Origin: Phoenix dactylifera
Taxonomy: Eukaryota; Streptophyta; Magnoliopsida; Arecales; Arecaceae
NCBI RefSeq assembly: GCF_009389715.1
Contig: NC_052395.1
Span: 18,883,528 to 18,947,527 of the forward strand
Length of the DNA stretch: 64,000 bases
Reading direction: 5' to 3'
Numbering within the stretch: position 1 is the stretch's first letter; each line of letters begins with the position of its first letter. A model generated the notes under the pieces. That model was not told where the DNA came from and did no database searches. It saw nothing but the letters and a program-made list of their open reading frames with translations. Positions 4,263 through 59,519 of the stretch are shown here, in pieces. A program made the translations under genes and the position numbers.

Positions 4263-4563
4263 ATGGAGGAGTCATTGGAGTGCCTCGTCGAGAGGGTTAA
4301 GGAAGAAGTTTTCTCTCCCTCTGCTGACGTACAAGCCTTCTTGCCATCGTCTGCCTACGAGACTGCATGGGTGGCCATGATACCCGATCCTGAACGCCGT
4401 AGTTGTCCTATGTTCCCAAATTGTTTGAGTTGGGTGCTCCACAACCAGAACTCTGGAGGGTCATGGGGAGAGCTTGATCTCACCATAGACCATTTCACTG
4501 CTACTCTGGCCAGTGTTATTGCGCTTAAGACCTGGAGCGTTGGCTCTATAAATATAGATGAAG
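4263..4563 (+). pseudogene. Terpene synthase (TPS-e/f) orphan exon 1, copy A
   Basis: Encodes about 100 residues starting [15 protein letters not shown] and containing [12 protein letters not shown], the conserved SAYDTAW-type motif of the N-terminal domain of plant diterpene synthases. VLHNQNSGGSWGE follows, typical of the geranyllinalool/linalool synthase subfamily (TPS-e/f). The family makes acyclic terpene alcohols such as geranyllinalool in plastids or cytosol. The exon is open to a GAAG/gtataac donor at 4,563/4,564 and has its own TATA box. No exon 2 follows nearby: homology to the complete copy stops in intron 1 at about 4,885. It is an isolated fragment, although splicing over some 24.7 kb to the exons at 29,231 cannot be excluded. 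This copy lacks the 10-bp deletion that breaks copy B. Confidence 0.85.
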
Positions 4564-4885
4564 GTATAACTAAGTCATCTTCATTGTTTCATTCTTCAAT
4601 GCTTCATAGTGACATCCATCAACAGAAAAAGCACAAAAGTTGACACCCCTCCTCCACGTAGGAGCTTCGGTTATAAAAAATAAATAAATAAAGGAGCTTC
4701 TGAGTTTGGATATATTATTGTTTTCTATTTACTCTATATAATTCCATTAGTTTAGGCTCCCATTTTTATTAGCACTTTTCCATTGACTGGGATTTTAGCA
4801 CTCAATCCAAGTTTCAAATTTTCTTTAGTCCTCGATCCCTAGCACTTTTGTATATTCTTATATCCTAATATGTGCGGAGTTACAC
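4564..4885 (+). other. Intron 1 remnant of TPS copy A
   Basis: Aligns with copy B intron 1 on both sides of the CACTA insertion (14,577-14,701 and 28,368-28,640). It contains GTAGGAGCTTCGG uninterrupted, which is the empty target site of that transposon. Homology ends near 4,885, next to a CACACACA run. Confidence 0.85.
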
Positions 4886-6310: not shown

Positions 6311-6439
6311 TTTATACAATTCGGTAGTTGTCGTTGTTGTTACTATTATAATATTCTAAGATTAAGAGATATCGTATCTTTGGATGATTGGCATCAACTG
6401 GAAACAAGCATCACTACAGGAAAAAGAGATTTTAACGAC

Positions 6440-6590
6440 ATGTTTTTGCCGACGCTTGCTACAAGCGTCGGCAATGTCCCGCAGAGCGCCAAAAATAGCC
6501 GACGCATTTTAAAAGCGTCAGCAATTTACGACGCTCGTTAGCGTCGTCGTAGAGTTGGCCTAAAACGACGCTTATTAGTGTCGTTGAAAA
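6440..6590. repeat. Left subterminal palindromes of CACTA 1
   Basis: Units such as GCCGACGCTTGCTACAAGCGTCGGC and GACGCTTATTAGTGTCG, in both orientations. They are the likely binding sites for a TNPA-like transposase. Confidence 0.85.
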
Positions 6591-6918
6591 CCAAATACCC
6601 ATCAAAACCCGCGTCCGCCTCCCTCCTCCATCCTCGATCGACATATCAAGCCCTCCTCTGCCTCCTCCTCCCTCCTCTGCCTCCTCCTTCTTCTGCCTCC
6701 TCCTCCCTCCTCTCCGGCGCCGACCAGTGTTGCAAGAAACCGGTTCTTCCTCTCCCTCCGCCCGCACCCATCCCGCCTCTTCTCTCTCTCTCTCTCTCGC
6801 TCGCTCTCTCGCCCTCTCTCGTTTCTTCTTCACCCTGATTCTTCTCCCTTCCCCCCTCCCGCCGCCTCGATTCTTCTTCATCCTCTCCCTCCGAACCCCA
6901 CATCGCCTCCCATAAAAA

Positions 6919-7891
6919 ATGACCGACGCCGAGCCCTCCTCCCCCTCCTCCGCCGCCTCCGCCAACTCTTCATGCGCCGCCGTCTGCTCCACCTCCGCCA
7001 CCGCGGCCGAGGCCAGCCCGCCGCTGTCGTCGATGTGCTCCGCCTGTGGCGGCCCCACCGCCTCCATCTCCTCTGCCGCCGGCCGCCACTTCCTTGGCTT
7101 CGTCGCCGATCTCTCCCACTCTGTCCGCGGCCGCAAGATCTCCGACCCCGTTCCCCCCCTCCCCCAAACCGTCACCTCCCTCCTCTCCCTCCTCCAAGCC
7201 CTAACCTCTTAAATCGATGAGATTCCCCCCCTCCCCCACTCCGCCCGCTACGGCAACCCCGCCTACCGCTCGTCTCCGCCGAGGCCCCCGCCCTCCTTCC
7301 CCCCCTTATTACCTCCGAGGAGCTCCTCCCCGCCGCTGACGAGCTTCTCCCCTACCTCCTCGACTCCTTCGGCAACGCCTCCCGCATCGACTACGGCACC
7401 GGCCACGAGACCAACTTCGCCGCCTTCCTCTACTGCCTCGCCCACCTCGGCCTCATCAGGGAGGAGAACTACCCGGCCCTCGTCACCCGGGTCTTCGTCG
7501 CCTACCTCGAACTCATGCGCAGGCTCCAGATCACCTACTGTCTCGAGCCCGCTGGGTCTCACGGTGTCTGGGGCCTCGAGGACTACCACTTTCTCCCCTC
7601 TATCTTTGGCTCAGCTCAGCTTATTGATCACAAGTATATGAAGCCCAAGTCGATTCACAACCAGGACATTCTTGATAACTTCTCCCACGAGTATATGTAC
7701 TTGGCCTGTGTGGCTTTTGTCAAGAAGGTGAAGAAGGGGGTGTTTGCTGAGCACTCCCCGATGCTTGATGATATCAGTGCGGTCCTGACATGGAGCAAGG
7801 TGAACAGTGGAATGCTGAAGATGTATAAGGCTGAGGTGCTTGAGAAGGTGCCCATCATGCAGCATTTTGTCTTTGGTTCGCTCATCAAATG
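6919..7891 (+). pseudogene. PP2A activator (PTPA) gene fragment captured in CACTA 1
   Basis: From the ATG at 6,919 the translation matches plant phosphotyrosyl phosphatase activator, the peptidyl-prolyl isomerase that activates PP2A. It has an N-terminal Ser/Ala-rich leader with an SxCxxCGGP segment, then SFGNASRIDYGTGHETNF, GVWGLEDYHFLP and FGSAQLIDH. It ends with MYKAEVLEKVPIMQHFVFGS and a split Trp codon at a gtacca donor (7,892). Nearly the full domain is present. It is broken: an in-frame TAA lies near 7,210, and a deletion near 7,265 shifts the frame between the N-terminal part and LVSAEAPAL. A CT-rich 5' UTR-like stretch precedes it (6,640-6,900), so the capture included the 5' end of the gene. 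The call is firm; function is lost. Confidence 0.88.
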
Positions 7892-7892
7892 G

Positions 7893-8520
7893 TACCATTT
7901 CCATCTTTCCGTTGGCATTTGATTAAGTAGAAACTTTATCTTCTTTCACATGTGAAATTGCTTCTACGCGCATGATAAAATTAGTTATTCTTTGCGATTA
8001 TGATATAATGTAGATTTGGGCTCATTAATATTCATTATGGCATTTATTTTGATTGTTTTTGTGTTCCTACCATTTTCATCTTTCCCTTGGCATTTTGATT
8101 AAATGGAAACTTTATGTTCTTTCACATGTGAAATTGCTTCTACCCGCATGATAAAATTGGTTATTCTTTGTGATTATGATATAACGTAGATTTGGGAATT
8201 GATCTCTTGAGTTGTTCAAACTATTTGAGAGGTATACCATAGTTGTACTTTTTATTGGTAATTCATGAGCTTGTGCTTGTCAAATAATGTAGTTGGTCAT
8301 GATTGCAATTACTTTTGGGGTTTATCCATGAACCAAAGACAGCCTTAGTATTTAATTGCTGTAATTGATCTCTTGGGTTGTTAAACCTTTTTGAGAGCTA
8401 TATCATGGTTGTGCTCTTGATTGGTAATTCATGAATTTGTCCTTGTCAAATGATGTAGTGGTCACAATTGTTGTTTCTGGTGCATAGTGTTTAAATTACT
8501 ATAACATGGTGGCAGCTATT
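7893..8520 (+). repeat. Two local tandem duplications in intron-like DNA
   Basis: About 7,893-8,030 recurs at about 8,078-8,195 (shared CTTTCACATGTGAAATTGCTTC), and about 8,197-8,310 recurs at about 8,366-8,475 (shared TTGGTAATTCATGA). This is probably intron DNA captured with the PTPA or syntaxin gene. Confidence 0.75.
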
Positions 8521-8658
8521 TTGAGACTTCCAGCTATATAGAGGTGACATATTGTATATATGCTTCATTCTAATAAGGCCTCTAAGACTATTGGTCTACA
8601 CATCATGCTGATTTTCTCCCTTAATTCCGTGATTCTTAGACATGAATTTCTAAATGCA

Positions 8659-9155
8659 GGCAAGCAAAAAGATAGCCGATGCAAAGCATGCAAAAGATTT
8701 CCAAGCAGTTCTGAAAGAGTTTCAGAAAGCTCAAAGGCTTACAGTTGAGAGGGAAACTGCTTATGCCCCTTTTGTTCCTCAAGCAGTTCTTCCTTCGAGG
8801 TACTGATTTACTCACTCAGCTCTTATTAGGTCTCAAGAAGTCGTGAATAATGATTGTCAGTCATGTGTGTTTGTTTTTGTTTTTTTTGGTTGTGCAAAGC
8901 TATTTAACATAAATTTGATGTATTCTAATGAATTTTCACTAGTAAATAGTAGTTTTCATAGTAATTGGTGTATTTTCAATACTGCATTTCTGCATATTAC
9001 AGTATCAATACATGATACATTGCGATCTTTGTGCCCTGCTGATCATCTGATTGCTGTAGCCTGGTTATTTTTGTGCAGCTATACTGCTAGAGAGAGAGAG
9101 ATGTTAGTGCTGATAAAACATCTGAACAGCGTGCTCTGCTTGTGGAATCTAGAAG
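8659..9155 (+). pseudogene. SYP2-type syntaxin (Qa-SNARE) exons captured in CACTA 1
   Basis: Exon 8,659-8,798 lies between a TGCAG acceptor and a gtactg donor. It encodes [17 protein letters not shown], then [17 protein letters not shown], the Habc-to-linker region of plant SYP21/22 (VAM3-like) vacuolar t-SNAREs. Exon 9,079-9,155 (acceptor TTGTGCAG, donor gtgaga) continues with SYTA and, after a frame change in a GAGAGAGAGA run, SADKTSEQRALLVESRR. Intron borders are preserved, so genomic DNA rather than cDNA was captured. The N-terminal Habc start and the C-terminal SNARE helix and membrane anchor are absent. The GA-run frameshift makes it non-functional. Confidence 0.85.
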
Positions 9156-9719
9156 GTGAGAGGTCTTTCTATTTTAATCCTTTGATGCATAATGATTATA
9201 TAGTTGAGTCCGTTTGTGAAATTGCCATGCTTGGCACAAAAGACTGTAGTACTGATATTTAAACACTTCTAGATGCTGTGCCAGGTATTATCTTTTTGAC
9301 AAGATTCTCTTTAAGTTAATTATTCATATCAATCATTATATAATTCATTTTACTACATTTAGCTTCTACTTAGATGAAGAGTTAGGTCTCTCAACTACAT
9401 TTAATATTTATTAAATGGATTTTAATTCTTTGATCCTGAAAAGTTGGGTTAGGTCTTGTATGGCTATGAATGCTCCATCTTTTTGACCCCTGTTCCTACT
9501 CCCCTTTTCATTTCCATTATTTCTTTGTGCCACTGAGTTATATTTCTGGTTTCATAAAAATATACTAATTGGACCTGGCTAGTATCATATTTTTTAATGG
9601 TAATCAAACCCATGAAATCATCAATATAGTCCATATACTACATCTTAGCTGGAATGGCCATGAGATCCGTGTTCTTGGAGTATAGTTTTTATTTCAGTTC
9701 TGTTTGTTTGCTTAGAATA

Positions 9720-9721
<2 letters not shown>

Positions 9722-9793
<72 letters not shown>
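9722..9793. repeat. (TA)n microsatellite
   Basis: About 36 uninterrupted TA dinucleotides inside CACTA 1. Confidence 0.95.
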
Positions 9794-9795
<2 letters not shown>

Positions 9796-10116
9796 GGGAA
9801 TTGGTGTTTGTTCCTGGTTAGTAATCGTCACTTCATCTATTCCAACCACAAAATGATCAAGATTTTCTCTCCACGAGGGTGGATATTATGTATAAATGAA
9901 CATCAGCAACCTTTCCTGCAGTGTTAAAATAAGGGCTTCTGTCTGCATCAAACTTTTGATATTTTGTACGATCTCTTTCCTCGTGGGAATATCTGCTTTC
10001 AAGACATTAGAAAGTCATCATGCATCATTTATTATTTGGTCTTTCTCTTCTTTTCTGTTTTGTTTGGGGATTGGGAAACCTGATGCAAAAGTTTTGTTAT
10101 TTGTTATTGATTGCAG

Positions 10117-10474
10117 CAAAGTCAAATGGTGGATGACATGGATGAGGATCTTGATGAAGATGATTTTGGTGCAAAGGGTTCTGCTTCTGTAGAGCATGAA
10201 TCTGATGATGAGATCGTTGAATCTGACATTGAACTTGAAGGAGAAACTGTAGCACCTGATGATGATCTGCCACAAAAGGTGATTTGCAATGTATATCATA
10301 TTTACTGCTTATGAATGACTCAAGAAGTTGTGAGTGTATTTTCAGTATTTTCAACTGCGGCTTATTATTACTACTTTTTTCTGTCCAGATGGGAGACCCA
10401 TGTATTGAGGTAACAGAGGAAAGTCGTGATGCCTCTCAAGAGGCTAAAGGGAAAGCTGGAAGCAATTTCAGAAG
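10117..10474 (+). pseudogene. Hsp70-interacting protein (HIP/FAM10) exons captured in CACTA 1
   Basis: Exon 10,117-10,278 (acceptor TTGCAG, donor gtgatt) encodes an acidic linker and then DDEIVESDIELEGETV. Exon 10,389-10,474 encodes MGDPCIEVTEESRDASQEAK. These are the acidic segment and the start of the TPR domain of plant HIP/FAM10 co-chaperones, which bind Hsp70 in the cytosol. A short deletion after GGGAAAGCT shifts the frame out of the expected MEAISEG continuation. Only two exons were taken; the TPR body, Sti1-type C-terminus and N-terminal domain are missing. Confidence 0.85.
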
Positions 10475-10609
10475 GTATTTCAGTATCTGTTGCATTGTAT
10501 CTAAGCCATACTTGCTCTGAAACATTTGGTATTGGCTAATTGTCAGGGGTTTATATAATGCTGTGTTTTTATAATTTACATTCGTATTTTTATTTTTTTA
10601 AAAAATAGT

Positions 10610-11030
10610 AATCCCGACGCTTTAAAGCGTCGGTAAATAAAAGTTGTGGCACGCCTAGGCCGACGCTAGAAAAGCGACGGCAAAAATACATTTACCGACG
10701 CTTTAAAGCGTCGGCAAAAACAAAGCTTTTCCGACGCAAATGAAAGCGTGGGCAAAAATGACATTTACCGACGCTTTAAAGCGTCGGCGAAAACACAGAC
10801 TTGGCTATCCTTTACGTTTTCCGGATGCTTTAAAGCGTCGGCGAATGTCATTTTTGCCGACGCTTTCCTTAGCGTCGGGAAAGCCTTGTTTTTGCCGACG
10901 CTTTATCTTAGCGTCGGCAAAAACTTTTGCCACTCCAGTATCGCCAACGCTTTTGCGACGCTTCTGTTTGCGTTGCGGGAACTTTAGCCGACGCTTATAA
11001 GCGTCGGTAAAGATTATAAAAAGCGCCGGA
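10610..11030. repeat. Right subterminal palindromes of CACTA 1
   Basis: At least nine CCGACGCTT / AAGCGTCGG motifs, often paired as perfect palindromes such as CCGACGCTTTAAAGCGTCGG, over about 420 bp up to the right terminus. Confidence 0.9.
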
Positions 11031-11055
11031 AAAGATGAGTTTTCTTTTAGTGCAT

Positions 11056-14576: not shown

Positions 14577-14724
14577 GTATAACTAAGTCGTCTTACGTTG
14601 TTTTCATTCTTCAATGGTTCATAGTGAAATCCATCAACAGACAAAGTATAAAAGTTGAAAAAGGACTATAGTCCAATTCCCACCCCTCCTCCACGTAGGA
14701 GCACTACAAAAGAAGTAATTTTTC

Positions 14725-15035
14725 CCGGCGCTTTGCAGAGCTTTTACCGACGCTTATACGCGTCGGAAATTTTCCTCCCCACGCGTCCAAAAGCGTGACG
14801 AAATCGTCGGGCAGGTGGGCGTGGAGGATTTTCGTTCCGACGCGTTTCGTCAGCGTCGGCAGATAACCCGACGCTTTTAAACGCGTCGGCAAAAGCAATT
14901 TTTCCGACGCTTTTATGCGTCGGTCTATTACCGACGCTTTTAAGCGTCGGTAGTTCTTGTATTACCGATGCTTTTGTGCTTTGGTATACCTGTGCCGGGA
15001 GAGTTATTGCCGACGCTTTTAAGCGTCGGCAATAG
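14725..15035. repeat. Left subterminal palindromes of CACTA 2
   Basis: Repeated CCGACGCTTTTAAGCGTCGG-type palindromes with variants (CCGACGCGTTTCGTCAGCGTCGG), at least eight motifs in 310 bp. Confidence 0.88.
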
Positions 15036-15194
15036 CATTTTTTTTTTTTAAACAAATTCGTAGAAACAAATGTTAAACCTGTATACAAAATACTTTGAGC
15101 CCTTCTTTGGCTTCTTTTTCAGAAGCTTCTGAGTCAAGCACTTTCCTGGCAACCATTCAATTTCAGTCCAAATGAAATTTTATGTATAATACAT

Positions 15195-15367
15195 ATGTTT
15201 CAATTGTCATATTGTAGTTTCAACGTAAAACAAACTCAACAAAAAAAAAATCATTCACATGGCTAACAATGGAAGGGGCTGGAGTATAACTTCCATAAAA
15301 AGTTCCTACAACTTAATGATGTTCTTGGAATGGCAGAGTAATACATGCAGAGTAATACATATGTTTC
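15195..15367. repeat. Tandem duplication of about 165 bp, second copy split by Gypsy
   Basis: ATACATATGTTTCAATTGTC at about 15,190, followed by GGCTAACAATGGAAGG and CCTACAACTTAATGATG, recurs after the Gypsy element at 25,046-25,190. The ATACATATGTTTC start of the second copy lies just left of the LTR (15,355-15,367). The duplication therefore existed before the Gypsy insertion, which landed in the second copy. Confidence 0.85.
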
Positions 15368-16242
15368 TGTTGCTGGGGGTCCAAACCGAGAACGATTGGC
15401 ACAGCGGTGTGAACGGGGTTCCCTTTGAGTTGCTTTGGTTGCGCTCCGCCCTCCGCCGTGAAACCTGCAAGCAAGCCTCGCACCACCACCAGGGTAGTGG
15501 GGGCCCTCCGACGATCAAGTCAGGGGAGATCGAAGGAGAAGGAGAAGGAGAGGTAGCAGGTAAGATGATACTCTGGAAAATCTTTCTTACCCTCCCCCTT
15601 CCCCCCCCAGCCCCATATATATCAGGCTGGGGGGTTTTTCTGCGGATTGGTCATCGTGTGGCACGATGGGGTTGCCACTGACGTGGCCGTTACAGGGCGT
15701 CGTGGGGCAGCGCTGGGTACGGCCATGGCAGGGCGTAGTGGAGCTCCGCTTTGTACGGCTGTTACAGGGGATCGTGGGGCAGCGCCGGATTCGGCCGTTG
15801 CAGGGAGTAGTGGAGCAGGGGGCCGCGGCGTGCCTCAGGAGAACAGTCTGTTGTTGTCAAGAGATTGCCGACCCGAGGTCGGGTTGCTGGATCAAGGGGC
15901 AACCGACTCGGGGTCGGACTGCGGAGCCGAAGATATCCGACCCGAGGTCGGATTGCTGGATCAAGGGGCAGCCGACTCGGGGTCGGGCTGCGGAGCCGAA
16001 GATATCCGACCCGAGGTCGGATTGCTGGATCAAGGGGCAGCCGACTCGGGGTCGGGCTGCGGAGCCGAAGATATCCGACCCGAGGTCGGATTGCTGGATC
16101 AAGGGGTAGCCGACTCGGGGTCGGGCTGCAGAGCCGAAGATATCCGACCCGAGGTCGGATTGCTGGATCAATGGGCAGCCGTAGTCTTCCTGGGCACGCG
16201 TGCCGGTCACGTGGGGCATGGTGGCTAAGTTCCCCCGTAACA
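15368..16242 (-). repeat. Gypsy 3' LTR (875 bp, five 69-bp units)
   Basis: Contains five occurrences of GACCCGAGGTCGG spaced exactly 69 bp (15,870; 15,939; 16,008; 16,077; 16,146). The other LTR has four, which accounts for the whole 69-bp length difference. Open frames across this array on both strands are by-products of the repeat. Confidence 0.95.
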
Positions 16243-16260
16243 GTAGCCCCCCACTTCCGA
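16243..16260 (-). other. Polypurine tract of the Gypsy element
   Basis: On the minus strand GGAAGTGGGGGGCTAC directly abuts the 3' LTR start; purine-rich as needed to prime plus-strand synthesis. Confidence 0.6.
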
Positions 16261-16655
16261 GCCTGGAACCAGAAGGGGAACGGGTGAAGGGAGTGACGCT
16301 TCGAGATTGCCGCCATCCCTCGGAAAGGCGCGCGCGCTCCGAGCTCCCCGCCTTCTTTATGGCGTATGGCGGTTGTCGCTGACCTGGCAGTCTGCGGATT
16401 TCGGCGGACATCCTTCCTTAATGGCGTCGATTCGCCTTTGGGGCGCGAACGATCCTTCGGCAGCCAGGCATCCTCTGGCGTCACCGAGGCGTCACCCGCC
16501 TTTCCGCCTATTTAACCGGGGGCCCTCCCCGTCCGCCTTTCTTTCCACAGGCATCCTCGAGTTTCTCCCTTGTGCTGCTGCCGTTGTTGTCGGACTGTTC
16601 GTTCGCTCCTCTTTTGATGCTCTTGGTAGCGTCTCGCCGACTCCTGACTCTTGAA

Positions 16656-17165
16656 GTTCCTCCGGCACTAGGCCAGGCATCCGAGGATTAGGCCTCAGGA
16701 AATTCTTCCGGCGCTAGGCCAGGCATCCGAGGGTTAGACCTCAGGAAATTCTTCCGGCGCTAGGCCAGGAATCCGAGGGTTAGGCCTCAGGAAATTCTTC
16801 CGGCGCTAGGCCAGGCATCCGGGGGTTAGGCCTCAGGAAATTCTTCCGGCGCTAGGCCAGGCATCCGAGGGTTAGGCCTCAGGAAATTTTTCCGGCGCTA
16901 GGCCAGGCATCCGAGGGTCAGGCCTCAGGAAATTCTTCCGGCGCTAGGCCAGGCATCCGAGGGTTAGGCCTCAGAAAATTCTTCCGGCGCTAGGCCAGGC
17001 ATCCGAGGGTCAGGCCTCAGGAAATTCTTCCGGCGCTAGGCCAGGCATCCGAGGGTCAGGCCTCAGGAAATTCTTCCGGCGCTAGGCCAGGCATCTAAGG
17101 GTTAGGCCTCAGGAAATTCTTCCGGCGCTAGGCCAGGCATCCGAGGGTTAGGCCTCAGGAAATTC
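16656..17165 (-). repeat. 46-bp tandem repeats in the Gypsy 3' region
   Basis: About eleven copies of a 46-bp unit containing CTTCCGGCGCTAGGCC and GGCCTCAGGAAAT; starts at 16,705, 16,751 and 16,797 confirm the period. It lies between the integrase end and the 3' LTR. Confidence 0.92.
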
Positions 17166-17660
17166 CGCTCATTGGTCGGCCAAGGCTGGCGCAAGCCGAG
17201 GCGACCGGTCGGGGCTTCAGGCTAGTCTGCTCCCGGGATGATCATCGGGTTAGCCTGGCATCCGAGGACTGAGCCTCGGGGAATTCCGCTCGTTGGTCGG
17301 CCAAGGCTGGCGCAAGCCAAGGCGACCGGTCGGGGCTTCAGGCTAGTCTGCTCCCGGGATGATCATCGGGTTAGCCTGGCATCCGAGGGCCGAGCCTCGG
17401 GGAATTCCGCTCGTTGGTCGGCCAAGGCTGGCGCAAGCCGAGGCGACCGGTCGGGGCTTCAGGCTAGTCTGCTCCCGGGATGATCATCGGGTTAGCCTGG
17501 CATCCGAGGGCCGAGCCTCGGGGAATTCCGCTCGTTGGTCGGCCAAGGCTGGCGCAAGCCGAGGCGACCGGTCGGGGCTTCAGGCTAGTCTGCTCCCGGG
17601 ATGATCATCGGGTTAGCCTGGCATCCGAGGGCCGAGCCTCGGGGAATTCCGCTCGTTGGT
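17157..17660 (-). repeat. 121-bp tandem repeats in the Gypsy 3' region
   Basis: Four near-identical 121-bp units (GGAATTCCGCTCGTTGG ... GCATCCGAGGGCC). They share CAGGCATCCGAGG-like sequence with the 46-bp array, so the longer unit probably grew out of the shorter one. Confidence 0.92.
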
Positions 17661-18732
17661 CGCGCGCCTATCACTTGCCGCTCGACGGGGTTTCTCCGTG
17701 GCCAGCTGCGATCGTATTTCTCCTCCTCTCGAAGCGTCGCCTGGGGAACACCAGAAGGCTATTAAATGCTAATTGAGGCGTTACCTGGAAAATCGGATCG
17801 GCCAGTTGCTGCTTGCGAGGAGTGCCAGTTAAGCGGCCGCGATACGCGCGTTCTTCGAGGCGGATGCGGCCTGGGCGCGTGCGGAGATACGTGGGCCGTG
17901 GGATACACGCTGCCCGGAGTGTCCTGCATGAAGAATGCAATTAAGGAGAACGACGCTTAGGAGGTCGTGGGAGGATACGCCTCGAGAGCCGGAACGGCTC
18001 CGGATTCGATGCGCCCGCATTTATTGGAGCCACCCGCATAGGAACGACCGGGGGGCCACAGTTTGGCTATAAATATAAGTGCAGGTGCGGTGGAGCCTGC
18101 CAAGCCGGAGCTGTTCAGGTTGCCATGAATCGTGGACCTCCTCTCCGGTGCGTGGCTGGGAAACCCCTGCCGGAGGAACGGGAGGCGCGCCCCTCGCGAC
18201 TTCCGCCAACTAGCCGTTTCATCTGGGATCAACAAGGAGATTCTCTCCGGCGGAACTCCGCTCTAGGCGTTTCATCCGGGATCACATCCCCCCTCTTTTC
18301 AGTCCCACCTCCCGATTGAGCTCTGCGCTAGACGCTTCATCCGGGATCGCGCCTCCTCGCGCTATTCTCCCTTGTATTCCTTTCCTCCCCTTCTCCTGGG
18401 GAGGACCGGAATATCCCTTGGAGGTGGCGTTCCTCTAGAAGCAGTGCGAACTTCTTCTTCGTCCGCGCCGGCTCTTCGTCTTTTGCGTGAGGCGTCGATG
18501 GCGCCTCCGGGGGGAAGCACCCACGCCCGGTGGGATTGCAGCTGCTTCGGATGGAGGGCTCGGGATCCCAGATCCTCAGCTTAACGGAGTCCCCACCTCT
18601 TCCTTACTTTCTTTACTCCCCAATTCTCCTCTGGGAATTCTTTGTAATCACACGAACACGCCATTGTAACCAGGAATTATTGAGATGAAAAGGACTATAC
18701 ATTTTTTGAACTGTCTTTCTGGCTTTGTCTTT
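17661..18732 (-). other. Gypsy noncoding 3' region
   Basis: GC-rich DNA between integrase end and the tandem repeats. TATAAATATAAG lies at about 18,069 on the plus strand. Repeats of TTTCATCCGGGATC occur near 18,215, 18,270 and 18,340. No conserved protein is recognised. Confidence 0.5.
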
Positions 18733-19695
18733 CTACTGGTAATACACCCGTAGGTTAGCGGAATTCCAGCTCCTTGGAATTTCTCGACCATCTAGGGCCT
18801 CCAACTGGTAGGAGCCAGGTCGGTTTACCCAGCGAACCCTATACGGGCCTTCCCAATTTGGCGCCAGCTTCCCACCTTCCGTGGGTTGAGATGCTTTGGC
18901 TCGCCTTAGCACCAGATCTCCGATTCTGCAAAGTTTTGGTCGGACCTTGGAGTTATAATATCGGGCCACCCTCCGCTGATACATCGCCATCCGAACCTGC
19001 GCCATTTCCCTCGCTTCTTCCAAGAGGTCCAAGTTTCCTCGGAGTTGCTCCGAATTGGCCTCGGGTCGGTGCGTAGCCACCCGGGGCGAGGGGAGTCCGA
19101 GCTCCACGGGGACAACCGCTTCCGTGCCATAGGTTAGGCTGAAAGGCGTCTCCCCGGTAGGGGTCCGATGCGTGGTCCGATACGCCCAAAGGACGTTCTC
19201 GAGTTCTTCGACCCAAGCTTGCCCCGTCCGACCGATTCGCGCCTTAATTCCTTGGAGGATTGTCCGGTTTGTCACCTCGGCCTCACCGTTGGTTTGGGGA
19301 TGCGACACAGATGTGAACCGATGCTCGATCCCGAATTCCTCGCAGAAGTCACGGAAATGCTTGTTGTCGAACTGTCGACCATTATCCGAGATGAGGACCC
19401 GGGGTACCCCAAATCGGACAATGATGTTTTTCTTCACGAACTTCCGGACTTGCGCCTCCGTGATAGTGGCCAGCGGCTCTGCCTCCACCCACTTGGTGAA
19501 GTAGTCGATTGCAACAATCAAGAATTTCCGCTGGGCGGAAGCGACGGGGAATGGTCCGAGGATATCCATTCCCCACTGTGCGAAGGGCCAGGGTGCGGTG
19601 ATTGGTGCCAAGGGGACAGAAGGGGCTCTCTGGACGTTGGCGTGGCGCTGGCAGGCGTCGCATTTCCGTACGTGATCCTTTGAGTCCTCCAACAA
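18733..19695 (-). CDS. Gypsy integrase region of gag-pol
   Basis: Continues the polyprotein frame after a TAA at 19,714-19,716. It begins in the HHCC zinc-binding part (CDACQRH), then the catalytic core (FAQWGMDILGPFP, DYFTKWVEAEPL, LISDNGRQFDNKHF, HPQTNGEAEVTNRTI: D, D and E all present). It ends with a C-terminal GPYRVRWVNRPGSYQLEALDG-like segment. It inserts the cDNA into the host genome. Length and motifs are normal for the family. Without readthrough of the TAA it would not be translated with pol. Confidence 0.92.
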   Translation of the reverse strand: MLEDSKDHVRKCDACQRHANVQRAPSVPLAPITAPWPFAQWGMDILGPFPVASAQRKFLIVAIDYFTKWVEAEPLATITEAQVRKFVKKNIIVRFGVPRVLISDNGRQFDNKHFRDFCEEFGIEHRFTSVSHPQTNGEAEVTNRTILQGIKARIGRTGQAWVEELENVLWAYRTTHRTPTGETPFSLTYGTEAVVPVELGLPSPRVATHRPEANSEQLRGNLDLLEEAREMAQVRMAMYQRRVARYYNSKVRPKLCRIGDLVLRRAKASQPTEGGKLAPNWEGPYRVRWVNRPGSYQLEALDGREIPRSWNSANLRVYYQ

Positions 19696-19713
19696 GGTAG
19701 GCCAATAATAGCC

Positions 19714-22700
19714 TTACCTCATGATCTTGTGCGCCAAGGACCTAGCCCCCGAGTGCGATCCGCAGACGCCCTCATGGACTTCGCCGAGGACGTAGGCCGC
19801 CTCCGAGGGGCGGAGGCACCTTAAGAGGGGGGCGGTAAACGAGGTCCGATACAGCCTCCCTTTATAGAGTACGTAGTGGGCGGACTTCCTGACAAGTCGC
19901 CGAGCTTGATCTTCGTCTTCAGGGAGGATCCCTTCGGCGAGGTAGGCGACGAGCGGGTCCATCCAAGACGGCTCCGGATCAATCGCCATCACCGCTCCAG
20001 CCTCGCCGATGCTCGGGGCATCCAGGGTCTCCAGGTAGATTGCCCTCGACAAGTTGTGCGCCTCTGCGCCCACCAAGCGGGACAACCTGTCGGCCCTGGC
20101 ATTTTCGCTTCTGGGGACCTGCTGGATGTCGACACTGCCGAGGTCGGGAATGAGTGCTTGCACCTTCCGGACGTAGTTCTGCATGGTCGGGCTCCGGGCC
20201 TCGAACTCCCCATGGACCTGCCCGACCACCAGCTGGGAGTCGGTGAAGACCTTCAAACGCCGGATGCCGAGCTCCCCGGTGAGTTTGAGTCCTGCGACTA
20301 GGGCCTCGTATTCCGCCTCGTTGTTGGTAACTGGAAATCCAATCCTCAAGGCATACTCGGCTATCACTCCATCAGGACTGGTAAGGACCAGCCCGGCCCC
20401 TCCACCCTCGGGGTTCGACGACCCATCGATGTGAAGCGTCCAGGTCGGGAGGTCGAGGCTGGGCGTTTCCGGCGGTCTAGGTTCCGCCTCCTGCACCGTG
20501 CACTCAGAGAGGAAGTCCGCGAGCACCTGGGCCTTGATGGCGGGTCGAGGCTGGTAGCGGATGTCAAATTCTCCGAGTTCTACTACCCACTTCACCAGCC
20601 GTCCCGCATTCTCGGGGTTGCTGAGGATCTGTCGTAACGGTTGATCAGTTAAGAGGGTGACAGAATGGGCCTGGAAATAGGGACGGAGCCTCCTGGTCGC
20701 GGTCAGCAGCGCGAAGGCGATCTTTTCAGCCTTCGTATACCGCATCTCGGCGTCCCGTAGGACCCGGCTGATGTAGTACACAGGCTTCTGGAGCTTTGCC
20801 TCTTCCCGAACCAGCACCGCACTGACCGCGGTTGGGGAGACCGCCAGATAGAGGTAGCGCATCTCCCCTTCTTGCGGCTTGGACAGTAGGGGAGGAGACG
20901 CTAGGTATTCCTTGAGCTGGTTGAATGCTGCTTGATATTCGGCCGTCCAGAGGAAGTCTTTTGGGCGTTTTAACACCTTGAAGAATGGTTGACAGCGTTC
21001 GGCCGATTTTGCCACAAATCGTCCGAGCGCGGCGACCCTTCCAGCGAGCTCCTGAACTTCCTTTACTTTGGTCGGAGGGGACATACCTTGGATGGCCTTG
21101 ATTTTGTCCGGGTTGGCTTCGATACCCCGCTGGTTGACAATGAAACCAAGGAACCTCCCGGCCGAAGCGCCAAAGGCGCACTTCGCTGGGTTCAGCTTCG
21201 TGCGAAACTTCCGTAAGGTGGTGAAAGTCTCCTCCAGATCCACGATGTGCTGGTCTGCCTGGCGGCTCTTCACCAGCATATCGTCCACGTACACCTCCAT
21301 GTTCCGGCCGATTTGCTCTTTGAAGATTTTGTTGACGAGGCGCTGGTAAGTGGCGCCAGCGTTCTTCAGACCGAAGGGCATTACCTTGTAGCAGTACAGC
21401 CCCCGGTCCGTTATAAAGGCAGTTTTCTCCTCGTCCTGTGGGGCCATCATTATCTGGTTGTAACCGGAGAAGGCGTCCATGAAAGACAGCAGCTGATATC
21501 TGGAAGTCGCGTCGACCAGTTGGTCTATCCGCGGAAGCGGGAAGCTATCCTTAGGGCACGCCTTGTTCAGGTCGGTATAGTCGACGCACATCCTCCACTT
21601 CCCGCTCGCCTTCCGGACAAGTACAATATTTGCCAGCCACTCGGGGTAACTCACCTCCCTTATGAATCCTGCCTCCAAGAGTTTGTCTACCTCCTGGTCG
21701 ACCACCCGGATCCGATCCGGGGCACAGTGTCTCTTCTTCTGCTTCACTGGCCGGTGGGTCGGGTCGACGTTGAGGGCGTGAGAAATGACCTCCGGGTCGA
21801 TCCCAGGTACATCGGCCGCCGACCAGGCAAATACATCGGCATTGGCTCGGAGGAATTCCACCAACCGGGCCCGAGCTCCCGGGTCGAGATTGGCGCCGAC
21901 CCGGACCACCCGGTCCCGGCGGCCTTCCTCGAGGGGAACTTCGACCACACCCTCGGCCGGCTCCCCCTGCCGCAAAGCCACCTCGTCTCTGGCATCAAGG
22001 GACTCGACGCTTAGGGCTTCTGCGGGCTTCTTCCCTTTGAGGGTCGCTAGTAAACATTGCCGTGCGGTCGGTTGGTCGCCTCGGACCTTCCCGATCCCGA
22101 CCGCCGTGGGGAACCGCATGAGCAAGTGGTACGTAGAGACCACCGCGCGAAGGGCGTTCAGTCCGGGTCGTCCGAGGATAGCGTTGTAGGCCGAGGGAAC
22201 ACGGACGACCAAGAACCCGAGTCGCACCGTGGCTTCTGCGGGTGCGACGCCCGCAGTCACAGGCAGCTCAACGACACCTTCCGCCGGGACAGCGTCACCG
22301 GTAAATCCTATGAGGGGGGTGGATATTTTGTGCAACAATTGTCTGGACAAGCCCATCTTTTGGAAGGCCTCGTAAAACAAGATATCAGCTGAGCTTCCAC
22401 TATCCACAAGAACACGCCTTACATCATAGTTTGCCATAGTGAGGGAGATCACCATGGCGTCATCGTGGGGGGTCTGAACCCCCTTTACATCCTCATCACA
22501 AAAGGTGATTACATTGCCGACCCTCTGTCTCTTTGCGACGGCCGCCCCTGACGCTTCCGTCGGGCCCCCTGCGTTCCTCACGGGCCGGGGGTAGCCCCCA
22601 GTGATAGTGTGGATCACGCCCGCAACGGGTCGATTCTGCTCCCGAGGCTCCGGAGGGGCCGGGTCGGCCGGACGCGGGTCTGCGGGGGGACGTCGGTCGC

Positions 22701-24198
22701 TCACATATCGACCGAGACGCCCCCGGCGGATGAGAGCCTCGATCTCGTCCCGAAGCTGGAAGCAGTCCTCCGTGTCGTGGCCGTGGTCTCGGTGGTACTC
22801 ACAGTATGCCCGGGAGGGCCTCTTCCCAGAGATCCTCCGCATCTGTCTCGGGGCCGGGAGGTCCTCCCGCCCCTTGATCTCCATAAGGATCTGGGCCCGG
22901 GGAGTCAGGAGAGGGGTGTACCGGTGAAAACGTCGGGGCGGAGAACGAGGGCGTGGGGCGCCGTGGTTTTTCGCCGGCGACGGGCTTCTGCGCCGACGCT
23001 GAGGCGTCGGGCTCCTCCTCTGGCGTGCCTCTTTCCGCCTTTTCTTCCCAAGCTTTTGAGGGATCTCGGCGGCCTCCTTGCTCCGGTGGGCGGCCGCCTC
23101 CTCGGCGTCCGCATACTGGTTCGCCCGGGACAACAGCTCTGGGAAGCTCTGCGGCAGGCGTTTGTCCAGGGAGAAGGTGAGTCTGCCCTTCCGGAAGCCA
23201 CGCTTCAGGGCTGAAAGAGCTACCTCCTGACTCAGGTTCCGGACCTCCAGCGTAGCCCTGTTGAAGCGGGTAAGATAATCCCGCAGGCTTTCTCCCTCGT
23301 TTTGCCGGACATCAAAGAGGGAGTCGGAGACCAGTCGCCGCCGGCTACTGACGGCGAAATGAGTGATGAAGAGGCGAGTGAACTGGTCGAAGGACCGGAT
23401 TGAGTCAGCCTCCAGCCCGGCGAACCATGCCCTCGCCGGGCCACGGAGGGTTGCCGGGAAAGCCTTGCAGAGAAGGGGATCTGATGCTCCGTGGAGGAGC
23501 ATAAGGGTCCTGAAACTCTCGACGTGATCTCGCGGGTCCGCCGCCCCGTCATATGGCTCGATCGCCGGCATTTTGAACCCCGGCGGATTCGGGGTCCGCA
23601 GGATCCTCGAGGCGAGCGCCGGCTGGGAGGAGATCTCTAAGTCGGCGAAGGGATCTTTGGAATGGCCCTTCAGGACCTGGAGTTGTCGGTGGAGATCGTC
23701 CACCCGCCGGTCCAGGGAGCGCGACCGGTGGGTGGGAGACAAGGAGCGGCGAGAGGGGGACCGACTGGAGCGCGGGTTCCTCGAGGACTGGGGGGTCTGG
23801 GAACGCGCCCGGGCCCGCCTCTCGTACCCCGAGCAGCTCCGGTGGGAAGGTCCCGACAGAATGGAGCGTGCTCGAGAATCCTCCTCGCGCCGGCGCTCCT
23901 CCCCATGGGAGAGGAAGGAGCGCGGGTTGAGGACGGGCGAACGCTCAGGCAGCAGCGGCTCCTGAGCCCGCTGCGGCGCCCGGGACATCGCACCCTGCAG
24001 ATTCTGCACCGCCTCCGCGAGGGTGCGAACCTGCTGGGCTAGCCGGTCGAACTGGGCGGCTTCAACCGTCTGAATGGGCGGTGGGGCGGTGGAGTGTTGC
24101 TGAGAGTGTGTTGGAGATGCAGCGGCCTCCCGGCCAGAGGCGCGAGAGGCCCCGCGACCGGAAGCATTGGAAGCTCCACGACCACCTCGCCGTGCCAT
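19714..24198 (-). CDS. Gypsy gag-protease-RT-RNase H polyprotein
   Basis: 1,494 residues from the ATG just inside the 5' LTR. A basic, Arg/Ser-rich leader is followed by a retrotransposon gag domain (ATLRGPARAWFAGL, FDQFTRLFITHF) near residues 220-330. A Cys/His segment CEYHRDHGHDTEDC lies near 470 and the protease LVDSGSSADILF near 600. Reverse transcriptase has FSGYNQIMMAPQD and MPFGLKNAGATYQRL, with the YVDD active site near 970. A first RNase H (TDQPLRQIL) is followed by a second RNase H starting HIDGSSNPEGG near 1,254. It ends at a TAA inside the integrase HHCC motif (AHKIMR), next to GYYWPT. Catalytic residues look intact. Confidence 0.93.
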   Translation of the reverse strand: MARRGGRGASNASGRGASRASGREAAASPTHSQQHSTAPPPIQTVEAAQFDRLAQQVRTLAEAVQNLQGAMSRAPQRAQEPLLPERSPVLNPRSFLSHGEERRREEDSRARSILSGPSHRSCSGYERRARARSQTPQSSRNPRSSRSPSRRSLSPTHRSRSLDRRVDDLHRQLQVLKGHSKDPFADLEISSQPALASRILRTPNPPGFKMPAIEPYDGAADPRDHVESFRTLMLLHGASDPLLCKAFPATLRGPARAWFAGLEADSIRSFDQFTRLFITHFAVSSRRRLVSDSLFDVRQNEGESLRDYLTRFNRATLEVRNLSQEVALSALKRGFRKGRLTFSLDKRLPQSFPELLSRANQYADAEEAAAHRSKEAAEIPQKLGKKRRKEARQRRSPTPQRRRRSPSPAKNHGAPRPRSPPRRFHRYTPLLTPRAQILMEIKGREDLPAPRQMRRISGKRPSRAYCEYHRDHGHDTEDCFQLRDEIEALIRRGRLGRYVSDRRPPADPRPADPAPPEPREQNRPVAGVIHTITGGYPRPVRNAGGPTEASGAAVAKRQRVGNVITFCDEDVKGVQTPHDDAMVISLTMANYDVRRVLVDSGSSADILFYEAFQKMGLSRQLLHKISTPLIGFTGDAVPAEGVVELPVTAGVAPAEATVRLGFLVVRVPSAYNAILGRPGLNALRAVVSTYHLLMRFPTAVGIGKVRGDQPTARQCLLATLKGKKPAEALSVESLDARDEVALRQGEPAEGVVEVPLEEGRRDRVVRVGANLDPGARARLVEFLRANADVFAWSAADVPGIDPEVISHALNVDPTHRPVKQKKRHCAPDRIRVVDQEVDKLLEAGFIREVSYPEWLANIVLVRKASGKWRMCVDYTDLNKACPKDSFPLPRIDQLVDATSRYQLLSFMDAFSGYNQIMMAPQDEEKTAFITDRGLYCYKVMPFGLKNAGATYQRLVNKIFKEQIGRNMEVYVDDMLVKSRQADQHIVDLEETFTTLRKFRTKLNPAKCAFGASAGRFLGFIVNQRGIEANPDKIKAIQGMSPPTKVKEVQELAGRVAALGRFVAKSAERCQPFFKVLKRPKDFLWTAEYQAAFNQLKEYLASPPLLSKPQEGEMRYLYLAVSPTAVSAVLVREEAKLQKPVYYISRVLRDAEMRYTKAEKIAFALLTATRRLRPYFQAHSVTLLTDQPLRQILSNPENAGRLVKWVVELGEFDIRYQPRPAIKAQVLADFLSECTVQEAEPRPPETPSLDLPTWTLHIDGSSNPEGGGAGLVLTSPDGVIAEYALRIGFPVTNNEAEYEALVAGLKLTGELGIRRLKVFTDSQLVVGQVHGEFEARSPTMQNYVRKVQALIPDLGSVDIQQVPRSENARADRLSRLVGAEAHNLSRAIYLETLDAPSIGEAGAVMAIDPEPSWMDPLVAYLAEGILPEDEDQARRLVRKSAHYVLYKGRLYRTSFTAPLLRCLRPSEAAYVLGEVHEGVCGSHSGARSLAHKIMR

Positions 24199-24217
24199 TA
24201 CGATCGCTCTGAGATCC

Positions 24218-24239
24218 GGGCCCTCCTTCTAGCGCCAAC
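24218..24239 (-). other. Primer-binding site of the Gypsy element
   Basis: On the minus strand, TTGGCGCTAGAAGGAGGG starts within 2 nt of the 5' LTR end. It has the TGG start expected of a site complementary to a tRNA 3' end. Which tRNA cannot be named from here. Confidence 0.65.
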
Positions 24240-25045
24240 TGTTGCTGGGGGTCCAAACCGAGAACGATTGGCACAGCGGTGTGAACGGGGTTCCCTTTGA
24301 GTTGCTTTGGTTGCGCTCCGCCCTCCGCCGTGAAACCTGCAAGCAAGCCTTGCACCACCACCAGGGTAGTGGGGGCCCTCCGACGATCAAGTCAGGGGAG
24401 ATCGAAGGAGAAGGAGAAGGAGAGGTAGCAGGTAAGATGATACTCTGGAAAATCTTTCTTACCCTCCCCCTTCCCCCCCCAGCCCCATATATATCAGGCT
24501 GGGGGGTTTTTCTGGGGATTGGTCATCGTGTGGCACGATGGGGTTGCCACTGACGTGGCCGTTACAGGGCGTCGTGGGGCAGCGCTGGGTACGGCCATGG
24601 CAGGGCGTAGTGGAGCTCCGCTTTGTACGGCTGTTACAGGGGATCGTGGGGCAGCGCCGGATTCGGCCGTTGCAGGGAGTAGTGGAGCAGGGGGCCGCGG
24701 CGTGCCTCAGGGGAACAGTCTGTTGTTGTCAAGAGATTGCCGACCCGAGGTCGGGTTGCTGGATCAAGGGGCAACCGACTCGGGGTCGGACTGCGGAGCC
24801 GAAGATATCCGACCCGAGGTCGGATTGCTGGATCAAGGGGCAGCCGACTCGGGGTCGGGCTGCGGAGCCGAAGATATCCGACCCGAGGTCGGATTGCTGG
24901 ATCAAGGGGCAGCCGACTCGGGGTCGGGCTGCGGAGCCGAAGATATCCGACCCGAGGTCGGATTGCTGGATCAAGGGGCAGCCGTAGTCTTCCTGGGCGC
25001 GCGTGCCGGTCACGTGGGGCATGGTGGCTAAGTTTCCCCGTAACA
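24240..25045 (-). repeat. Gypsy 5' LTR (806 bp, four 69-bp units)
   Basis: Direct copy of 15,368-16,242 with one fewer 69-bp unit and a handful of substitutions. As the 5' LTR it should hold the element's promoter on the minus strand. Confidence 0.95.
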
Positions 25046-25477
25046 GTTTCAATTGTCATATTGTAGTTTCAATGTAAAACAAACTCAACAAAAAAAAAGT
25101 GTTCACATGGCTAACAATGGAAGGGGCTGGAGTATAACTTCCATAAAAAGTTCCTACAACTTAATGATGTTCTCTTGGAATGGCAGTTATTTCACATGCA
25201 AGATTCTATTCATTAAATTCACAAATTTGCTCAACATAAAAATTCACTCTTATAGCTCTACGGAGCAGAAGTCATAACTGGCTTGGTTAAAATAACAAGC
25301 AGAAGGTATAAGCATTTCAAAAAAATGATGCAAGATACATTCAGCTTATTAAACGAAACCGTAGCCTTGATTTGGTCAACTCTCATACCAATGTCATCTT
25401 TATAATATTTGTTGAAAGTCTTTTTTCAACAGTCCTCTGACACCCATGCCAGAGTTGAAAGGCAAAAGGGTTGGGTC

Positions 25478-28179: not shown

Positions 28180-28345
28180 CTTGGCGACGCTTATAAGCGT
28201 CGTTTTAGTCTCAAGTCTACGACGACGCGTTTAAGCGTCGTCCAATGCTTCAAATTTTCCACGCTCACCAAGAGCGTCGGGAAAGATTGGCGCGGGAGCA
28301 GGAAATGCCGACGCTTTCCCTTAGCGTCGGCATTTAAGCGTCGGC
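28180..28345. repeat. Right subterminal palindromes of CACTA 2
   Basis: GACGCTTATAAGCGTC, GACGCGTTTAAGCGTC, CCGACGCTTTCCCTTAGCGTCGG and related motifs up to the right terminus. Confidence 0.88.
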
Positions 28346-29748: not shown

Positions 29749-29834
29749 GTGAGTTCTAAAATAGCGATAGATCCGAAAGATGGTATTTACTTTGTCTCTA
29801 CATCACTACAACAATAAAGGGTTTTGGCGACTCT

Positions 29835-29995
29835 ATATTGCCGACGCTACAAAAAAGCGTCGGCAAATTTTTTTTTGCAACGGTAACTGCCGACGCTTGT
29901 GGAAAGCGTGGGTAAAAAACGTTCCGCCGACGCTTTTAAGCGTCGGCGTAGGAAAAAAATACGACGACGCTTATAAGCGTCGTCGGACTTCACTC
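29835..29995. repeat. Left subterminal palindromes of CACTA 3
   Basis: GCCGACGCTACAAAAAAGCGTCGGC, CCGACGCTTTTAAGCGTCGG and GACGACGCTTATAAGCGTCGTC within 160 bp. Confidence 0.88.
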
Positions 29996-30019
29996 CTCCC
30001 CTCCACAAAACCCCGTCGG

Positions 30020-30399
30020 ATGGAGGTGGGCTGCCTTCTTCTCTTTCGAACCCTCTCCTCTCCTCTCATTCGCCCTCCTCTCCGTCGCCATTCCTGGCCA
30101 GTCCCGTCCTCGCCTCTCCTTAGAGCCTCCTCTTCCCCTCCGCCTATTCCCTCTCCTCCCTCGGCTTATCCTCAGGTACGCAGCCGTACCCTCCTCTCTT
30201 CTCCTCTCTCCTCTCTCTTCTTCTATAACTTGGTTTCTTTGGTGCGAAGGGGGCTTACAGAGGCCCGAAACCCCGGCGGGATTTGGTAGGCGACTGGGTC
30301 TCCAACAACGATGGGTTCGTCCGGAGCTTGCCCATCTTCGTGGGCGGCCTCTCCTTGCTCGCTGTCCTCCTTAACCGCGCCTTCTCCGGCATCGCCCCC
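30020..30399 (+). pseudogene. CCB4-like chloroplast protein fragment captured in CACTA 3
   Basis: The ATG at 30,020 opens a Ser/Pro/Arg-rich, plastid-transit-like peptide (MEVGCLLLFRTLSSPLIRP) running to a CAG/gtacgc donor near 30,175. A second exon from about 30,250 encodes AYRGPKPRRDLVGDWVSNND, then RSLPIFVGGLSLLAVLLNR and SGIAP. This matches my recollection of plant CCB4, a thylakoid membrane factor needed to attach heme c to cytochrome b6. The match stops after SGIAP at about 30,399, where unrelated sequence begins. Only the N-terminal third is present. Identification is from remembered family sequence, hence moderate confidence. Confidence 0.62.
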
Positions 30400-30738
30400 G
30401 AGTTCTTGAACGACGACGGCGACGAGACGAGGGTTCTGAGCTCCACCGCCCCATCCTCCACTCCCTTCCTTCATCGCCGTCTTTTTTCTAGAATCGAATC
30501 GAAGCTGCACACGGTCTCTCTTGGCCTCTCTTTCCCCATCTGTTCTTGTTGTAAGTACTCCAGCTCTAATTTCCCTTCCCCTAGTCGCCACGCTTGATTT
30601 TTCTCTCGATCTGTTTGCAATGGAAAGAAAACCTGATGCTCGTTTCCTTCTAATCTCAGGGTTTCTCTCTCTCCTTCGGAGGGAAATTACATGTGCCGAA
30701 TTGTGGTTTTCGTTCGTTCGGGAGTGATTTCTCTGGAG

Positions 30739-32275: not shown

Positions 32276-32370
32276 GTAAGTTTTTGAGGTTAGAAGTCCA
32301 ACCGCTATGCTGCACCCAATCTAAGATGCTGAAATTTCAGAGGTCCTGTCGAAGAATGTGGTTACTGGCA

Positions 32371-32447
32371 ATGACTCTGGTTTTGTGCATCAGGCATAGG
32401 TGGATTGGTAGGTATGAAGCCCATCTGTTCGGGAGTGATTTCTCTGA
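32371..32447 (+). repeat. Scrambled internal copy of AIL pieces
   Basis: ACTCTGGTTTTGTGCATCAGG through GAAGCCCATCTGT repeats 31,339-31,392 (intron end plus start of the second AIL exon). It then switches directly to TTCGGGAGTGATTTCTCTG, which repeats 30,717-30,735. Two distant internal segments are joined in a new order. Confidence 0.85.
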
Positions 32448-32465
32448 AAATTTTTTTTAAAAAAA

Positions 32466-32870
32466 AATAATATTCTAACGACGCTTTAAAGCGTCGTTAA
32501 AATCACGAAATTTTTTTAAAAAAAAATAATATTCTAACGACGCTTTAAAGCGTCGTTAAAATCACGAATTTTTTTTAAAAAAATAATATTCTAACGACGC
32601 TTTAAAGCGTCGTTAAAATCACGAAATTTTTTTAAAAAAAATATTATTCTAACGACGCTTTAAAGCGTCGTTAAAATCACATTTAACGACGCTTTAAAGC
32701 GTCGCTAAAAAGCGTCGCTAATTTCCGACGCTTTTAAAAGCGTCGGAAAATATTTTCCCCACTGTAGCATAGGCGACGCCTTACCGACGCTTAGGAAAGC
32801 GTCGGGATGGTTTTTACCGACGCTTAAAAGCGTCGCTAAAGGCCAAAAAAAAGCGTCGCTAATGCCCAAT
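32466..32870. repeat. Right subterminal repeats of CACTA 3
   Basis: Four tandem units of 57-59 bp (starts 32,473; 32,532; 32,589; 32,647), each holding the palindrome AACGACGCTTTAAAGCGTCGTT. Looser CCGACGCTT/AAGCGTCG motifs then run to the terminus. Confidence 0.92.
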
Positions 32871-32924
32871 TTTCTTGTAGTGCATGGAAGAGGATGACCG
32901 GGTACAATTTGGTATATGACACAG

Positions 32925-59387: not shown

Positions 59388-59519
59388 CATAGTATTATAC
59401 AACAGAACATAATAAAACATAACATAAATTAATACATAAATATACGATATAGTATAATATTATTGTAATATAAAATAATATTATGTTAATATAGCATAAT
59501 AGTAATATAATTATTAGAG

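Follow-up and report, generated by a model that had tools for sequence, protein, structure and literature searches.

The 64-kb window analysed here, positions 18883528-18947527 of contig C4 in the date palm genome, contains at 6412-11052 a CACTA transposon of 4641 bp which is non-autonomous, is built from pieces of three unrelated host genes (PTPA, the syntaxin SYP2 and HIP/FAM10) and a fourth scrap, and is a Pack-CACTA by the features tested. Taking all of the evidence together, we hold it highly probable that this is a Pack-CACTA with stepwise overwriting of its interior, mobilisation in trans, repair-type capture and a passive cargo. The two ends would have been kept together while the DNA between them was overwritten in successive captures from unlinked genes. 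Relatives found in the plant's own genome (G000; searches covered 773 Mb in 2391 contigs) carry different subsets of the pieces and suggest that these were gathered one after another.

The left end at 6412 reads CACTACAGGAAAAAGAG and the right end at 11052 reads TTTTCTTTTAGTG. A short terminal inverted repeat (TIR) starting with CACTA is present, which on the left reads CACTACAGGAAAAA..., and the right end, which is ...TTTTCTTGTAGTG in the relatives with visible ends, is TTTTAGTG in the window copy, with one change. Subterminal GCGTCG/CGACGC motifs number 6 in 6412-6620 and 16 in 10600-11052, against simulated means of 0.35 and 0.66, respectively, and a maximum of 4 each (1000 first-order Markov simulations); the 3.8-kb interior has a single one. 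The features of the element are the following:

6409..6411, no strand: left target-site duplication (TSD) CAT, from the end reading.
6412..6721, plus strand: 5' arm, CT-rich in its inner part and bearing subterminal GCGTCG palindromes, from the end, the motif count and what is common to relatives without PTPA.
6722..8194, plus strand: PTPA fragment with 5' untranslated region, exon 1 and part of intron 1, from donor L038 and PF03095.
8195..9291, plus strand: SYP2 syntaxin fragment with two exons, from donor L019 and PF14523.
9292..9397, plus strand: scrap X1, from a 95% match at C9:16147671.
9398..10548, plus strand: HIP/FAM10 fragment with two exons, from donor L021.
10549..11052, plus strand: 3' arm with tandem subterminal palindromes and the TAGTG end, from homology and the motif count.
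11053..11055, no strand: right TSD CAT, from the end reading.

These segments (310 + 1473 + 1097 + 106 + 1151 + 504 = 4641) cover every base and, since the arms and the four captured pieces fill the whole length, the element has no transposase of its own; no PF02992 match lies in it among the best 150 of 534 candidates. An original prediction, made from the letters alone, had already read the CACTA ends, the CAT duplication and the subterminal palindromes as they stand here. It had also described exons of three gene families in one orientation with preserved splice sites, and in fact all captured exons are on the plus strand, the four internal exons have AG and GT, and the first exon of PTPA has GT. 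The shared orientation of three genes is unremarkable, as its chance is 1 in 4. The PTPA, SYP2 and HIP pieces of that inventory hold, and a fourth piece (9292-9397), without a recognised gene, has to be added to them.

The captured DNA comes from identifiable host donors, since L038, L019 and L021 were found by a search with the element interior that scored the best 40 of 237 candidates, the counts from which are lower bounds. The PTPA piece (Pfam PF03095, E 1.5e-94) matches L038 on C15:6.39 Mb with 96.8% identity across 7055-8196 and, in 6722-7084 (363 columns), where gaps are many, 92.8%. Its ATG is at 6919, exon 1 extends to 7891 with the GT at 7892, and the remainder runs into intron 1. 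In the donor this exon is open from the ATG to the splice donor site; the window copy has a 207-bp in-frame deletion at the 7055-7084 overlap and a further 13-bp deletion, and its frame ends at a stop 97 codons past the ATG. A truncated PTPA paralogue on C6 (L027, 85-87% identity) was ruled out as the donor, with 85% against 97% for L038, and a retrocopy was ruled out as well, because donor and paralogue share the long exon and the piece extends into the intron.

The SYP2 piece, with exons at 8660-8799 and 9079-9155 and AG/GT kept, was identified by PF14523 (Syntaxin_2, E 1.3e-9, for a hand-entered peptide that reads across one frameshift), and its second exon has a 2-bp insertion relative to the donor. 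This donor, L019 on C2:28.90 Mb, is 97.1% identical, has later syntaxin exons downstream, and its joined exons match syntaxins in the PDB. The HIP piece has two exons, 10117-10278 and 10389-10474, followed by an intron and its acceptor AG, and includes an (AT)35 tandem repeat at 9723-9792. Its peptide hit no relevant family in Pfam, with one irrelevant family below the cut-off; the name HIP is given because the DNA is 98.0% and 98.7% identical over two stretches to L021 (C2:15.70 Mb), the exons of which match Hsc70-interacting protein (PDB 4j8d, E 3.1e-57), with TPR and later exons downstream. X1 (106 bp) is 95% identical to C9:16147671 (L050), which may not be its direct donor; it is the left remnant of a longer captured X present in the pre-HIP relatives L033, L035/L062, L043 and L045, in which a second piece of X matches C11/C589 at ~98%. 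Aligning each fragment to its source gene, as had been proposed, thus gave three donors that are ~97-99% like the window pieces, apart from the 363-column PTPA stretch at 93%. The donor genes are unlinked and their frames are open over the stretches examined. No CACTA arm was found in these stretches (L019, L021, L038 and others, up to 4.5 kb each); the sole match is a CCT-rich one of 21 bp within the PTPA exon.

The cargo has been mobilised as a unit, being found at two unrelated sites with TSDs CAT and TTT. The four-piece element is also present on C1662, C2226 and C310, which make up at least one other site, with TSD TTT; the C310 copy is interrupted by an insertion, and the sequence examined did not show its 3' tip. 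The copies on C1662 and C2226 are 99.6% identical over 6.87 kb including both flanks, and the 5' flank of C310 is ~98% like both. Four independent copies were therefore ruled out: because the flanks are shared, these three represent one insertion site, and they appear from their sequence to be haplotigs or duplicates of it. The window flanks gave no match to the three loci. Between the window and C1662 the divergence is 1.7% in PTPA, 1.4% in SYP2, 0.75% in HIP, 2.7% in the 5' arm and 4.3% in the 3' arm. The search for other copies with the same ends hence yielded a second insertion with a different TSD, so that the prediction does not fail on the lack of one.

Further relatives comprise 17 loci with a 5' CACTA end, 9 of which also have the 3' end in the sequence examined, 8 of these set by homology. 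All 8 homology-set relatives have perfect 3-bp duplications, representing 7 sites, as L029 and L030 are one site; the ninth, L042 (TGT), was left out of this count because its end was located by seeking its duplication. Their cargo forms a series: SYP2 without PTPA, PTPA and SYP2 without HIP, all three, and members with further gene pieces. L042 carries a 1.6-kb piece of the same SYP2 donor, containing the window's piece, and no PTPA; it also has UDP-glucose 4-epimerase exons at L042:1004-2394 in element orientation (PDB E 6.9e-29, two exons joined by eye). L043 and L045 have PTPA with the 207 bp intact, SYP2 and X, and in L033, L034/35 and L036 the 207 bp are deleted. No HIP was found in the sequence examined of these five, among which the C95 element (L034 + L035/L062), split by a 22-kb insertion, has both ends (TGG/TGG) and PTPA with SYP2.

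HIP sequence is present in L037, L039, L040, L041, L044 and L046, and L047 and L048 retain a HIP remnant of only ~27 bp before the 3' arm. Exons of pyruvate decarboxylase (PF00205, PF02775, PDB) are present in L040, L046 and L047, and L039, L041 and L044 have, by eye, at least part of the last one; a gene-like sequence common to L039, L041, L044 and L048 had no Pfam match with two peptides. In L052, of which 607 bp were examined, 47 bp of PTPA leader are followed by other sequence, which may be the start of ATP-citrate lyase. The element family as a whole collects gene pieces.

The order of the captures can be read from two trees. The 5' tree, built on the aligned shared stretch of the 5' arm and PTPA start, with cargo presence not coded and rooted on L053, places all PTPA carriers in one clade (100) with L042 outside. 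Inside the carriers, L043+L045 are followed by L036, L033 and L034 (the C95/C35/C6 elements; 75, 63, 29), and the window, L029, L031 and nine more (L037, L039, L040, L041, L044, L046, L047, L048 and L052) form a HIP clade (100). The 3'-arm tree gives the same order with weaker support (94, 75, 39); its row for L040 was untrimmed, and the long L040 branch is an artefact. The distances of the window pieces to their donors (HIP 0.7%, PTPA 2.1%, SYP2 2.5%) fit this order. At nine SYP2 sites L042 agrees with most of the other element copies and differs from the donor; polarised by a C5 paralogue (80.6%), four of these sites are derived in the elements, four are donor changes and one is ambiguous. 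At site 2406 L042 and the donor agree, and every other copy with data differs from them. Since these nine sites are shared and four are derived in the elements, one SYP2 capture seems likelier than two, though the sites are few. On this evidence SYP2 would have been captured first, then PTPA and X, followed by the 207-bp deletion and then by HIP, which would have replaced most of X, after which relatives would have taken more pieces.

Several observations weigh against this reading. A 3' tip is lacking for 7 of the 17 5' ends (L031, L033, L036, L037, L039, L043 and L045), although in L043 the 3' arm is present with its tip not seen. Several tree nodes are weak (29, 39, 63), L042 stands in the 5' tree by its arm alone, and the root was chosen. 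The C1662 copy gives 1.2% for HIP, 1.3% for PTPA and 2.2% for SYP2, because of which the distances alone fail to settle the order, and SYP2 in L036 is at 1.2%. Finally, the single SYP2 capture depends on four polarised sites, some in a poorly aligned intron, and donor alleles are possible.

The element would owe its mobility to a TNP2-type transposase that other elements, with ends related to its own, provide in trans. Arms 82-83% like the window arm are followed 2.7-5.6 kb downstream, on the same strand, by PF02992 (Transposase_21) in at least 5 of the 40 arm places listed with a 289-base query: C284, C1:6.60 Mb, C601, C45 and C573 (arm and transposase lists compared by eye; places not read end to end). 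These places are the likely source of its transposase. As for capture, the junctions, read by eye, overlap by GG (PTPA/SYP2), by G (HIP/3' arm) and by about one base (5' arm/PTPA); X1/HIP has zero shared bases and one extra A, and SYP2/X1 an imperfect TATNAT. Microhomology was dropped as a proof of mechanism on these 0-2 bp; in the portion seen of a study of animal Pack-TIRs, microhomology at the junctions occurs in 67.6%, with a median length of 2 bp (PMC8277862). The window junctions are compatible with gap filling and not decisive for the mechanism. With 0-2 bp at the junctions and the arms co-inherited in both trees, we infer a repair-based capture, in which ectopic DNA would be copied with template switching during break repair inside the element. 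A broader proposal would make the whole lineage an interior-rewriting capture machine, in which break repair repeatedly swaps the middle, each capture cutting the previous one, so that the family is a stepwise record of at least SYP2, UDP-glucose 4-epimerase, PTPA, X, HIP, pyruvate decarboxylase and others; this we advance tentatively, giving it not quite an even chance.

Among other explanations, the one that survives best is composite capture, in which neighbouring CACTA copies on either side of a gene piece lose their inner ends and then transpose together as a single unit, a model that PMC8903248 and PMC13317346 ascribe to Catoni et al. 2019. It would also yield products made of a left element part, host DNA and a right element part, and local insertion of related Pack-TYPE copies is on record (PMC8903248, part seen). 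Both arm trees, however, have the same order, so that no step needs two different parents, although closely related neighbours would look alike in such trees and the 3' tree is weak; the lack of a CACTA arm in the donor stretches also speaks against it, though excised copies would leave none. We regard it as a possible but doubtful route, and continue with repair-based capture of a passive cargo.

The cargo could instead act as RNA, with antisense or small RNAs from the element that would control the donor genes of PTPA, SYP2 and HIP or protect the element from silencing. Its 93-99% identity to the donors over stretches of 0.3-1.1 kb would suit such a role, as would subterminal palindromes that could fold, but every piece is in sense orientation with respect to the left arm, and we consider this unlikely. 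A spliced chimeric RNA from the element is possible, for which splices from 7891 to 8660 and from 9155 to 10117 are predicted. In those relatives that lack PTPA, the 5' arm runs into a stretch with TTGAAG|GTAT (9 of 10 loci), which looks like a leader exon with its splice donor, so that the arm may carry a promoter.

A functional chimeric gene, with a PTPA-SYP2-HIP or PTPA-like protein product under selection, is far less probable still. The retained splice sites and the single orientation would favour it, and two further observations count against a passive cargo: in 4 of 9 copies (L031, L033, L034 and L043) the PTPA frame stays open as far as the end of the exon, and changes by codon position lean to the third in single copies from the second site, albeit in small numbers (L029 2:4:8, L031 3:4:10). 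Short divergence may be the reason for both. The frame is, however, broken in the window copy and four others, and over the nine copies together the distinct PTPA changes from the donor fall 36:31:36 by codon position (seven of them, common to all nine copies, may belong to the donor), so that overall no coding constraint on PTPA shows. The PTPA to SYP2 junction passes from phase 2 to phase 0, with a stop five codons on, the SYP2 to HIP junction likewise from phase 2 to phase 0, and the window reading frames contain indels. A fusion protein was ruled out on this mismatch and these indels: it is unlikely on sequence grounds because neither gene-gene junction preserves the frame and that of PTPA is itself broken. 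An open frame across the exons and coding selection, as expected of a chimeric gene, were not found, and single copies have few changes. Of the predicted chimera, the uptake of three unrelated genes into a CACTA element thus stands, on unlinked donors and a second insertion; an in-frame product is not expected. The cargo would be passive, with neither a sign of coding constraint over the copies together nor an in-frame fusion. That the fragments were genomic neighbours captured as one locus, which the prediction had named as grounds for rejecting it, has practically no chance and was ruled out: nothing speaks in its favour, the donors lie on C15, C2:28.9 Mb and C2:15.7 Mb, and relatives carry subsets of the pieces.

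Multi-gene CACTA elements are already known; this analysis adds the donor genes, a second insertion site and elements at half-way stages, and such a readable series is unusual. Helitrons are not known to have TIRs or TSDs, whereas the window element is a TIR element; Dong et al. 2011 is reportedly a maize paper on them. They do resemble this family in acquiring sequence successively with nested stages, explained by filler DNA (PMC6544945, part seen). Soybean Tgm-Express1 is a CACTA element with five host fragments in intron 2 of F3H, for which chimeric cDNAs were demonstrated (PMC1947982, part seen), so that a chimeric RNA from the window element has a precedent. Both carry exons and introns of several unrelated host genes with exon/intron structure kept. 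The window element differs in having three genes and a scrap, in being known from sequence alone with no intact host gene shown around it, and in that its donors and half-way stages are identified. Pack-CACTA/Pack-TYPE elements of Arabidopsis, rice and maize are likewise non-autonomous, with CACTA ends and captured coding DNA, but the part seen of PMC8903248 describes no series in which the capture order is readable from relatives in one genome. The same holds for Chenopodium CACTA elements, which captured host gene fragments, including an 80-bp AP2 fragment, without a stepwise series in the part seen (PMC8978399). Among the matches listed, no stepwise capture by CACTA elements was recognised in the open-access literature, and no title on date palm and CACTA concerned gene capture. 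The capture route of TIR elements for unlinked genes is still debated, and a 2026 review allows, in the part seen, that an undiscovered mechanism might exist (PMC13317346); donors, junctions and half-way elements in one genome allow sequence-based tests of the models. They also carry a warning for gene annotation, as the long open PTPA exons found here belong to transposons.

Elsewhere in the window, a second CACTA element lies at 29804-32882, with CAT at 29801-29803 and 32883-32885, GCGTCG palindromes and several AP2 transcription factor exons (PF00847, E 5.3e-15, exons joined by eye) in the same orientation as the element at 6412-11052. Clusters of CACTA-type subterminal repeats at 14702-15042 and 28185-28332 are probably remnants of other CACTA elements. 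A diterpene-synthase-like first exon occurs at 4263-4565 (PDB, best E 2e-16), and 36123-36560, without a PDB match, presumably resembles the last exon of such a gene; a weak home-made motif scan found no middle exons. This gene looks broken or split and, as no middle exons were found, we do not claim that the element at 6412-11052 inserted into an intron. A long retroelement, rich in GC, occupies 15229-25066; its minus strand has a gag-pol-like open frame of 1504 codons, and tandem arrays that resemble each other stand at its two ends. In L043 and L045 the X piece is followed by sequence that is 84-90% like the right part of this retroelement. At 59506-60225 there is an AT-rich 137-bp tandem repeat; AT-rich repeats that look similar by eye lie at L027:1-920 on C6, where they immediately precede the truncated PTPA paralogue.

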